64,000 bases of DNA, taken from positions 3,650,001 to 3,714,000 of the forward strand of contig NZ_CP066356.1 in the NCBI RefSeq assembly GCF_023278185.1, given 5' to 3'. Origin of the DNA: Bradyrhizobium elkanii USDA 76 (GTDB lineage Bacteria; Pseudomonadota; Alphaproteobacteria; Rhizobiales; Xanthobacteraceae). How positions within the stretch are numbered: the first letter of the stretch is position 1; each line of letters opens with the position of its first letter. The position numbers were made by a program, and so were the translations under genes. This document shows, piece by piece, positions 14,719 to 51,393 of this stretch. Under the pieces are notes generated by a model. The model was not told the DNA's origin. It worked only from the letters and a program-made list of their open reading frames with translations, and did not search any database.

Positions 14719-15606
14719 TCAGCCGTCATACTGGTCCGGCCCCATCGCCCATGACGCCTGGTCGTAGCCGTTGGCGAAGGTGCGGTTGGTCTGCGCCGGG
14801 TTGCGATTGACCAGCGGCCGCAGATACATCGGGTGGGTGGCGCTGCGCACCTCGTGCTCGACGGTGAACAGATGCCGGCCGTCGGCCGGATCGACGATGT
14901 CGCAGAAGCGGTACTGGTATTGATTGTCCTCGCGGGAGATCAGATTGCGTTCGCGCAGCCGCTGGTAGGGGCCCGAGAAATCCGTGATGTAGATCTGGAT
15001 GTGATGACCGTCGAATTCGCCCGGCGCCGCGTCGCTCTCGCGGAATTGCAGATGCTGATCCTTGCCGACTTTTGCGCGCGCGACCGTGCCGTCGCCATTC
15101 ACAACGCTGGCGGGAATGCCCATGATCTCCGGATAGAACCGGCTGATCGCCTCAGCCGTGCCGCGCGGCACCTCGAACTCGACATAGGGCATGCCGAGCG
15201 CGATGCGCCCGAACCGTCCGGCGTCCGGTTCAAAGCAGCGCAGGCGGTTGCCCCAGGGGCAGGTGGCCTCGACGTGATCGTTGCGCTCGCGATAGCTGAA
15301 CGCGGTGCCCTCGAGCTTGGGCGCGACCGCGGCGAGCCGCTGCAGCAGGGCCTGCCGCCCGGCGATCACGATGCCGCTGTGGCCGCGCAGCACCTGCGGC
15401 CGGCCGCTCGGCAGATGGAACTGGCTGCGGCCGACATTCACCCACATGTTGCTGTCGGAGACCATCAGATAGGGATCGCGGGTCAGCCCGATGCCGGCGA
15501 CGTAGAACAGCGTGGCGAGGCGCTGGTCGGGTACCTGCACGTTGACATGTTCGAGATGAATGGCGTTGCCGAGGTCTTCTGCGGCGCGGTCGAATGGCTG
15601 CTGCAC
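14719..15606 (-). CDS. VOC-superfamily (glyoxalase/dioxygenase-like) protein
   Basis: The 295-residue protein contains two VOC half-modules: IHLEHVNVQVPDQRLATLFY ... near the N-terminus, and GMPYVEFEVPRGTAEAISRFY ... GHHIQIYITDFSGPY in the second half. Histidines and glutamates (LEHVNV, VEFEV, HHIQIY) may supply the metal ligands. The start codon is GTG 15606 with a GGGAG site upstream. The metal and substrate cannot be assigned. Confidence 0.75.
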   Translation of the reverse strand: MQQPFDRAAEDLGNAIHLEHVNVQVPDQRLATLFYVAGIGLTRDPYLMVSDSNMWVNVGRSQFHLPSGRPQVLRGHSGIVIAGRQALLQRLAAVAPKLEGTAFSYRERNDHVEATCPWGNRLRCFEPDAGRFGRIALGMPYVEFEVPRGTAEAISRFYPEIMGIPASVVNGDGTVARAKVGKDQHLQFRESDAAPGEFDGHHIQIYITDFSGPYQRLRERNLISREDNQYQYRFCDIVDPADGRHLFTVEHEVRSATHPMYLRPLVNRNPAQTNRTFANGYDQASWAMGPDQYDG

Positions 15607-15692: not shown

Positions 15693-15720
15693 GCTACCCC
15701 CCGTAACTCTGCACCCGGCT
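15693..15720. repeat. 28-bp direct repeat, copy 1 (fliP 3'-end duplicate)
   Basis: This segment matches 27 of 28 bases of 16397-16424. On the minus strand it reads as the last eight codons and stop of fliP with one change (Ser-Arg-Val-Gln-Ser-Tyr-Gly-Gly-stop instead of Ser-Leu-Val...). It begins at the last base of the higA stop codon. Together with copy 2 it brackets the higBA cassette, as att-type repeats would. Confidence 0.85.
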
Positions 15721-16097
15721 CAGGCCGCGTTCTTCCGACTCGGTCGGATCAGCACTTCCGCCGAGATACCGAGATGCTCGTGCAAGCGTCGAATCATCCC
15801 CACCGAGAGGGCGCGCTTTCTATTCAAAACTTCGGCGATGCGGGTTCGCGTCCCGATGATCCCCTCCAGATCCCGCCGGGTCAGTCCCTGCTGCTCCATC
15901 CGGAACTTGATTGCTTCGATGGGATCAGGAGGATCCATGGGGTAGTGTTGAGCTTCATAGGCATCGATCAGCGTTGCGAGCACGTCCAGCCTGTCGCCAT
16001 CGCGCGTTCCCGCTTTTGCGCCCCAGAGGCGTTCCACCTCCTTTAGCGCAAGCTCATAATCCTGTTCCGTCCGGATTGGCTTGACCTCAGTCGCCAT
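15720..16097 (-). CDS. higA: HigA-type antitoxin, XRE helix-turn-helix
   Basis: The 125-residue protein has an N-terminal helical region (YELALKEVERLWGAK, RLDVLATLIDAYEAQHYPM) and then an HTH domain (AIKFRMEQQGLTRRDLEGII, RIAEVLNRKRALSVGMIRRL) of the HigA family, which binds and neutralises the HigB RNase and represses the operon. Its ATG overlaps the end of the higB frame by 11 bases, the usual toxin-first higBA arrangement. The stop codon coincides with the edge of a 28-bp direct repeat. The antitoxin looks intact while its partner toxin does not. Confidence 0.85.
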   Translation of the reverse strand: MATEVKPIRTEQDYELALKEVERLWGAKAGTRDGDRLDVLATLIDAYEAQHYPMDPPDPIEAIKFRMEQQGLTRRDLEGIIGTRTRIAEVLNRKRALSVGMIRRLHEHLGISAEVLIRPSRKNAA

Positions 16098-16396
16098 GTC
16101 GCACCTCTTTCACGTCAATCTTGTCGTAGTCCTTGTGCGTACCGATCCATTTGATCCATACGATACCCTTCTCGAAGTCGGCGGCGATAACCAACCGATA
16201 TTCGTTTCCCTTGATGTTGAAGACGATCCGATCCGCTGAAACGATGCTGGCGGTTGAGTAGCTGCGTCGTACATCCGCAGAGTTGGCCCATTGCGCCTTC
16301 TTGACTTCGTCGAACCACGCATCGAGGGCAGCCTTCAGCGCGGCGTAGTCTTTGTGTCGCCGCCGCCCCTCTACAAATGGCGCAAGCCGTTGGGAA
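16087..16396 (-). pseudogene. higB: HigB-type toxin lacking a start codon (5'-truncated)
   Basis: The minus-strand frame reads QRLAPFVEGRRRHKDYAALK, AALDAWFDEVKKAQWANSAD, VRRSYSTASIVSADRIVFNI, KGNEYRLVIAADFEKGIVWI, KWIGTHKDYDKIDVKEV, a nearly complete HigB RNase fold. The family normally starts with about eight more residues (Met-Arg-Ile/Val-Ile-Ala-type). Here the sequence upstream is fliP itself, and no ATG, GTG or TTG occurs in this frame before the homology begins. The toxin therefore appears decapitated by the junction with the fliP repeat. Alternatives: a rare start codon, or fusion to FliP by slippage on the G6 run before the fliP stop. Confidence 0.75.
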
Positions 16397-16424
16397 GCTA
16401 CCCCCCGTAACTCTGCACCAGGCT
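16397..16424. repeat. 28-bp direct repeat, copy 2 (native fliP 3' end)
   Basis: This copy contains the last eight codons and the TAG stop of fliP and matches 15693-15720 at 27 of 28 positions. Repeat-to-repeat distance is 704 bases, exactly containing higB and higA. Confidence 0.85.
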
Positions 16425-17150
16425 GCCGGCGACCAGGGCCCAGCCGTCGACCAGCACGAAGAAGATCAGCTTGAACGGCAGCGAGACCACCACCGGCGGC
16501 AGCATCATCATGCCCATCGACATCAGGACCGAGGCGACCACGAGGTCGATGATCAAAAACGGCAGGAACAGCAGGAAGCCGATCTCGAAGGCGCGTTTCA
16601 GCTCGGAGATCATGAAGGCCGGCACCAGGATGCGCAGCGACATCTCCTCCGGCGTCGCCGGCGGCGGCTCGCCGGAGAGGTCCATGAACAGCTTCAGATC
16701 CTTCTCGCGGACGTTCTTCTGCATGAAGCCGCGCAGCGGCACCGAGGCGCGCTGCAGCGCGTCCTCGACGCCGATCTGGTTGGCGACCAGCGGCTTGATG
16801 CCGTCGTCATAGGATTTCTGCAGCACGGGGCCCATCACGAAGGCGGTGAGGAACATCGCGAGCGCGATCATCACCGAGTTCGGCGGCGCGGTGGCGGTGC
16901 CGAGCGCAGTGCGCAGCAGCGACAGCACGACCACGATGCGCGTGAACGACGTCATCATGATCAGGATCGACGGCGCGATCGACAGCACCGTGAGCAGCGC
17001 AATCAGCTGGATCGCGCGCTCGGTGACGCCGCCATTGCCGCCGCCGAGATTGATGCTGATATCCTGCGCCATCGCCGGATCAGCGAGGGATCCGGCGGCG
17101 ATCAGGACAGCGATGAAAAAAACTCTACGCGGGACGGCCGCTGGCCTCAC
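16398..17150 (-). CDS. fliP: Flagellar export apparatus protein FliP
   Basis: The 250-residue protein has a cleavable signal peptide (to about AMAQ, residue 29) and the FliP signatures TVLSIAPSILIMMTSFTRIV and FLLFLPFLIIDLVVASVLMS. FliP forms the pentameric core of the export gate with FliQ and FliR, and the length is normal. It overlaps fliO by 4 bases (ATGA) for translational coupling. The stop is preceded by six consecutive G residues. The last eight codons are duplicated beyond the higBA cassette at 15693-15720. Confidence 0.97.
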   Translation of the reverse strand: MRPAAVPRRVFFIAVLIAAGSLADPAMAQDISINLGGGNGGVTERAIQLIALLTVLSIAPSILIMMTSFTRIVVVLSLLRTALGTATAPPNSVMIALAMFLTAFVMGPVLQKSYDDGIKPLVANQIGVEDALQRASVPLRGFMQKNVREKDLKLFMDLSGEPPPATPEEMSLRILVPAFMISELKRAFEIGFLLFLPFLIIDLVVASVLMSMGMMMLPPVVVSLPFKLIFFVLVDGWALVAGSLVQSYGG

Positions 17151-36102: not shown

Positions 36103-36108
36103 CGGCTG

Positions 36109-36127
36109 ATCTTTACATCGTAAAGAT
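36109..36127. promoter_or_regulatory. TetR-type operator O1 (perfect)
   Basis: ATCTTTAC-ATC-GTAAAGAT, perfect 8-bp arms. It is identical to the site at 37804-37822. It directly precedes the membrane protein gene at 35515-36102. Confidence 0.75.
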
Positions 36128-36161
36128 ACCCTAGGGGCGAGCAATGAAAGCGTCAAGCAAA

Positions 36162-36180
36162 ATCTTTACAGTGTCAAAAT
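36162..36180. promoter_or_regulatory. TetR-type operator O2 (imperfect)
   Basis: ATCTTTAC-AGT-GTCAAAAT, two mismatches in the right arm. It is preceded by CGTCAAGCAA exactly as the second operator at 37858, so the whole two-operator promoter segment is duplicated. Confidence 0.65.
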
Positions 36181-50945: not shown

Positions 50946-51393
50946 GTGCTCGCTCCCGTGGGGGTGCGCCGCCAAAATATCGAAAACAACCCCATGCAAA
51001 GGAGCCGGCGGCTGCCGGCGTTCGAAAAGCAACTTGACACGTCGGGCAACTCAGGGGTACTTTTCTACTATTCCGAAATTGTGCGGGCGTCGCCTCGTTC
51101 CTCTAAAGCGCGATGAATTCAGGTTGAATCGGCCTGGCGGCATGCGCCGGCATCTCCCCCCGCAACCGGCAGGGCAATCGCATATAAAAAAATCTGTCGG
51201 GCAGCGTACTCGCGGCCATCCTTCGAGACGCCCGCCTTCGGCAGGCTCCTCCAGCGACAAAGGCGAAGCCTTTGCGCGGGGATGACGGGTCTTGTTTTGC
51301 GGCACAGTAGTAGACCCTCATGGTGAGGAGCGCCGCTTGCGGCGCGTCTCGAACCACGAGGCCGAGTTACCTCCGTAGCCGCTGAAGGGTCAT
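50946..51393. other. Intergenic region with dispersed repeat
   Basis: No gene is supported in this stretch. It holds a dispersed repeat at 51217-51289 (with a relative at 54479-54550) and a further inverted motif (GAGGAGCGCCGC/GCGGCGCGTCTC) near 51325-51350. Base composition drops toward AT just before it (TTCTACTATTCCGAAATTG). Confidence 0.4.
51217..51289. repeat. Dispersed repeat CATCCTTCGAGACGC... copy A
   Basis: The unit runs from CATCCTTCGAGACGC to GGGGATGACGG and contains AGCGACAAAGGCGAAGCC and TTTGCGCGG. A second copy with few differences lies at 54479-54550. Confidence 0.75.

Follow-up and report, generated by a model that had tools for sequence, protein, structure and literature searches.

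Insertion of higBA DNA at the 3′ end of fliP with duplication of the gene end in Bradyrhizobium elkanii

CIMEs and islands located at gene 3′ ends hold their cargo between direct copies of the host gene end and leave the host gene restored, and the XerCD-dependent dif modules of Acinetobacter are small units, often toxin–antitoxin pairs, that sit between inverted 28-bp Xer sites. Here we compare with these systems a locus in a 64,000-nt stretch of Bradyrhizobium elkanii USDA 76 (hereafter the window; all coordinates are window positions, and all features given for the locus lie on the minus strand), whose genome, G000, comprises 9.5 Mb in 2 contigs. As in CIMEs and 3′-end islands, the window cargo lies between two direct copies of a host gene end (fliP), fliP is restored, no integrase frame was recognised inside, and the flanking repeats correspond to a single copy at the empty site. 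Unlike in those systems, the searches made with the fliP tail in view yielded neither an autonomous relative nor an integrase or attP, the window cargo is broken at its edge, and fliP insertions in other lineages lack the repeat. The likeness to dif modules extends to small size, frequent toxin–antitoxin content and short bounding sequences, but the sites flanking the window cargo repeat the end of a coding sequence in direct orientation. The cargo itself resembles the HigBA family (PF09907 and PF01381) in its domains, in having the toxin first and in its overlapping frames, and differs from it in a toxin without an ordinary start codon and in the loss of a palindrome that precedes the genes of intact relatives. 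A literature search returned no paper on this arrangement, as judged by titles and the opening lines of abstracts.

The flagellar export gene fliP (16398–17150) is intact through its stop codon (Pfam FliP, 272 bits; NCBIfam TIGR01103, above cut-off) and is followed downstream by the insert and then by VOC-like, aminotransferase-like and MFS-like genes; these three labels are our reading, and the Pfam scan, which covered the VOC-like protein (14719–15606) among them, gave no match. In the clade that retains the empty site, the VOC-like gene comes next after fliP. The inserted DNA spans 676 bp (15721–16396), or 704 bp with one repeat copy. The two repeat copies (15693–15720 and 16397–16424) are in direct orientation at a spacing of 704 bp and agree at 27 of 28 positions, with the fifth base as the sole mismatch and an unbroken identical block of 23 bp. 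The near copy, 16397–16424, consists of the native fliP 3′ end plus one base past the stop and has the same letters as the single copy in the related genomes G004 and G133. The far copy, 15693–15720, shares its first base with the end of the higA stop codon and runs on into the native downstream flank. For the 27/28 match, the 704-bp spacing, the origin of the near copy in the last native codons of fliP and the starting point of the far copy, the preliminary description of the locus was accurate; its statement that the repeats bracket exactly the higB and higA frames holds for higA, which is complete, and fails for higB, which has no ordinary start codon and lost its first codons at the junction. 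The letters AGCCG around the mismatch may derive from the cassette, because G149 has the same letters after its higA; among the seven relatives aligned, AGCC(G) follows higA in G149 only.

Two controls addressed how often such repeats occur. Across 320,492 bases (the window and stretches of 20 relatives, 21 sequences in total), exact direct repeats of at least 18 bp spaced 80–6000 bp apart amounted to 13 segments in 4 sequences, and since three of these segments are the fliP tail, the fliP-tail repeat is more than chance would provide. Downstream of fliP at 78 loci (583,056 bases, the window's own locus left out), exact repeats of at least 20 bp spaced 80–3000 bp apart were present at four loci, one being the fliP tail of G105; both controls cover stretches near fliP, so the standing of fliP among the 3′ ends of other genes is not set by them. 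Elsewhere in the window, the segments 36107–36128 and 36151–36174 each recur ~1695 bp downstream as AT-rich, partly palindromic direct repeats, possibly paired regulatory sites, and a direct repeat in two pieces (22 and 21 bp; 51245–51288) recurs 3261 bp downstream and is perhaps a dispersed intergenic repeat.

Both a HigB and a HigA domain are present in the insert, toxin first, and the higB frame ends inside higA. The antitoxin gene (15720–16097) is complete, encodes 125 aa with a PF01381 (HTH_3) domain, and has a best protein match of 94% among those listed. The higB frame (16087–16396) matches PF09907 with 105 bits over profile positions 2–74 of 74 and is open from 16806 to 16087. Neither ATG nor GTG occurs in it ahead of a TTG that lies within the domain (16194), and roughly the first 65 codons past the fliP junction are free of ATG, GTG and TTG; other start candidates upstream of the first ATC (16245) are two CTG codons only (16443 and 16338). 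Homology to the best-aligned relative, G174, starts at about codon 5 of higB. A palindrome, GCGCCCA-N3-TGGGCGC, precedes higB in eight relatives (a variant does so in five more), where it looks operator-like, and it is absent from the whole window even with one mismatch allowed. By comparison with these relatives, the window toxin is 5′-truncated, with its first codons and upstream palindrome lost at the fliP junction. As far as sequence can tell, the window thus offers no translatable toxin with its own control region, which a functional type II HigBA requires, and its only remaining product is presumably HigA, expressed by read-through from fliP.

The top named records among close higBA copies are from Bradyrhizobium. 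At three genus loci where higBA lies on a contig other than that of fliP (L046 in G153, L047 in G100 and L049 in G012), HigB similarity starts at residues 19, 25 and 44, respectively; 5′-cut toxins thus occur more than once in the genus, and the start loss in the window is not unique. The sequence CCGTCGGGCAAAACA or a near form of it lies after higA in several genomes (L043 in G245, L044, L046, L047 and L049) and, in G245, a 39-bp form (37/39) stands on both sides of higBA; it is absent from the window.

To place the insert in its clade, we used the empty fliP–VOC junction of G004 as a query against 265 genus genomes. It returned one unbroken match in 35 genomes, all of which therefore lack the 676 bp (G177 is among them, its match cut by a contig end), and a junction split with its halves adjoining in two, the window's genome and G105; in the remaining 228, fliP and the VOC gene are separated or at least one of them was not found. 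Of all loci compared, G133 has the fliP most similar to that of the window (97.3% identity), and it carries a single tail followed by the same bases as those after the window's far copy. Because single-tail empty junctions occur in 35 of the 265 genomes, G133 included, the higBA DNA is a lineage-specific insertion, derived within the clade, that duplicated the fliP end. The preliminary description had proposed both this insertion and the comparison of fliP loci with and without the cassette; the comparison supports the insertion and the duplication, while the idea of an intact higBA cassette fails on the truncated toxin. The window fliP shares 90.5% identity with that of G149; we rejected replacement by a G149-like donor fliP on these identities, by which the window fliP is the clade's own. 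At one further locus (L032, in G003), ~25 extra bases with GGTAGC at both edges, possibly a small scar, separate the fliP stop from the downstream sequence typical of the clade.

The fliP 3′ boundary has received other DNA as well. A 22-mer of the tail, with at most one mismatch, is present in 71 of the 265 genomes, with two copies only in the window's genome and G105. A looser tail pattern, for which per-genome counts are complete and positions are those among the matches listed, is present in 209 genomes and matches twice in five; the second match is close by in G000, G105, G142 and G254 and sits on another contig in G218. Searching each locus with its own tail (at most five mismatches; 163 loci whose downstream sequence reached 1 kb or more, with some genomes represented twice) recovered the same four genomes plus a weak case, G014. 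In G105, a 1228-bp unit between 32-bp copies of the fliP tail encodes a RusA-like protein together with an AHJR-like nuclease, both frames complete and without a match to anti-phage models. Because G105 holds this unrelated cargo between copies of the same fliP tail, the data support the fliP 3′ boundary as a recurrent landing place for small gene sets in the genus. The G142 insert is short, and no empty counterpart of its site was found. G254, whose near side is like that of G255–G257 and whose far side is like that of G258, resembles a mosaic formed from two downstream haplotypes. By our thresholds, the first 1.3 kb after fliP falls into 23 clusters in 137 genomes. Outside the genus, no genome of 284 had two copies of the fliP tail, a result that says little since only 18 have any match.

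Furthermore, the same two cargos occur beside fliP with other junctions. The higBA family (E-value of 1e-20 or better) is present in 21 of 265 genomes and beside fliP in three (G000, G149 and G210). When G149 and G210 are compared with the higBA-free G075 and G087, only a ~11–12-bp repeat after the fliP stop is visible by eye; the window's fliP-tail repeat was not seen around these copies. RusA–AHJR DNA was found in 4 of the 213 genomes searched with the insert as query, immediately adjoining fliP on its downstream side in G105, G153 and G282, and as fragments 1.0–4.1 kb beyond it in G206. Relative to G137, the G153 insertion lies a few bases past the fliP stop, with no tail copy and no clear repeat. 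Since the repeats measure 23–28 bp in the window, 32 bp in G105 and ~11–12 bp in G149/G210, with none clear in G153, alignment indicates that the landing place recurs and that the duplicated sequence does not stay constant. In G206 (L187) the RusA 3′ part occurs twice, at ~1.0 and ~3.7 kb downstream of the fliP stop, as a direct repeat ~2668 bp apart. In G282 (L186) RusA appears to carry an internal deletion, its start and end being present without a tblastn match, and its AHJR partner matches over 208 aa beside fliP.

The reading we prefer, at a probability of about 0.5, is that the insertion was illegitimate and duplicated its target at a hotspot where such events are tolerated. A fragment with most of higB and all of higA would have entered the fliP 3′ end by illegitimate recombination, with break repair or template switching as candidate chemistries; 23–28 bp of target were left on both sides, so that fliP keeps its stop codon, and the toxin lost both its start and the palindrome found before higB in intact relatives. 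The fliP 3′ boundary would then be a tolerated, repeatedly used landing zone in the genus and not a dedicated attachment site. This reading is favoured because the toxin is truncated, the cargo breaking inside a gene, and because the junctions change among events. End joining in rhizobia is treated in PMC10932983, and capture of foreign DNA by end joining is the subject, by its title, of a 2019 study cited in PMC7719229. Several observations count against illegitimate insertion. The far copies of the window and G105 start within a base of each other (by the 28-bp block) or a few bases apart (by the 23-bp block), much as an att site would produce, although part of this coincidence is expected because a ~22-bp tail search favours such cases and the fliP stop must be kept. 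Truncation is not general, since both G105 cargo frames are complete; a duplication of 23–32 bp is long for simple end joining; and left-junction microhomology is not clear in the alignments, so that an initial proposal of microhomology on both sides was dropped for that junction.

That the two tail-flanked cases share nearly the same far boundary keeps alive the main alternative, which we nevertheless consider unlikely: that the fliP 3′ end is an attB at which integrase-less cassettes, like cis-mobilizable elements, enter via a recombinase elsewhere in the cell. It would yield what two lineages show, namely unrelated cargos flanked by copies of the same fliP tail with fliP restored in both, and the 27 Phage_integrase matches in the window's genome could act in trans. 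Among the matches listed, however, none lies near fliP in 11 genomes; the nearest in the window's genome (among 23 of 27 listed) is ~64 kb away, outside the window, and G210 has one ~23 kb from fliP on the same contig. For the looser tail pattern (without a match in 56 of the 265 genus genomes), the matches listed include no genome with paired tails separated by more than ~1.3 kb on a single contig. An attP-like tail copy is absent from viral contigs and phages, with only a 17-base match in plasmids, and neither an autonomous relative nor an integrase using the fliP-tail site was seen among the matches listed in the genus genomes and the viral, phage and plasmid collections. Within the insert, no inverted pair of at least 16 bp joins the cassette ends, and no transposase with terminal inverted repeats of that length was found, the two frames scanned giving only HigB and HigA domains. 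Queries with the G022 HigB found two viral contigs encoding relatives, at 50% and 31% identity; AHJR relatives were found in no viral contigs and in six plasmid records, all below 60% identity.

A precedent for entry at an attachment site, which also counts against illegitimate insertion, is an Acetobacteraceae MAG (L242) in which a related higBA is flanked by two partial tRNA copies, with an integrase-like frame next to it; both labels are our reading, and ARAGORN found no complete tRNA there. A survey for repeat-flanked higBA (97 loci, comprising 80 from the search for close higBA copies and 17 of the 21 genus higBA loci, with some genomes entered twice and the window's locus left out; 94 scorable) gave four rows scoring at least 14, all four also at least 18, against 6 of 1000 and 0 of 1000 mismatched pairs, respectively. 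General higBA mobility with repeats was rejected on inspection of these rows, which are a start-placement artefact (L048), the same G245 sequence twice (L043 and L234), and L242. The truncation at the junction and the presence of the same cargos without the tail repeat in G149/G210 and G153 also speak against the attB reading and, with the searches above, against the moving minimal higBA cassette of the preliminary description. Doubtful in our view is the fuller version in which the fliP 3′ end is a docking site for minimal cassettes without integrase (toxin–antitoxin; RusA with AHJR nuclease), moved in trans by a putative recombinase, and the older G149/G210 and G153/G282 insertions are the same events with a decayed far tail.

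Alternatively, two haplotypes of the region downstream of fliP could have recombined, or a tail-bearing circle could have been the partner, with tail homology docking the module and leaving a second tail; G254 looks like such a mosaic, and G149 and G210 carry higBA next to fliP, as expected of a donor. This we judge improbable, as the window fliP is native and the window higBA DNA (79% identity to the fliP-linked G149/G210 copies) is no closer to them than to G174 (81%), in which higBA and fliP lie on different contigs. Tandem duplication by slippage without insertion, raised earlier as an alternative, has next to no probability left: a direct repeat does exist, but the 676 bp between its copies are missing from the 35 sister junctions and are related to higBA elsewhere.

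Here the arrival of small gene sets at the 3′ edge of a core flagellar gene can be seen against close relatives that still hold the unoccupied site, and illegitimate capture could therefore be distinguished from site-specific docking. The lost toxin start in the window indicates that a tidy repeat around a toxin–antitoxin pair need not signal a mobile cassette. Were docking in trans the true explanation, it would provide a route by which small integrase-less cassettes spread.
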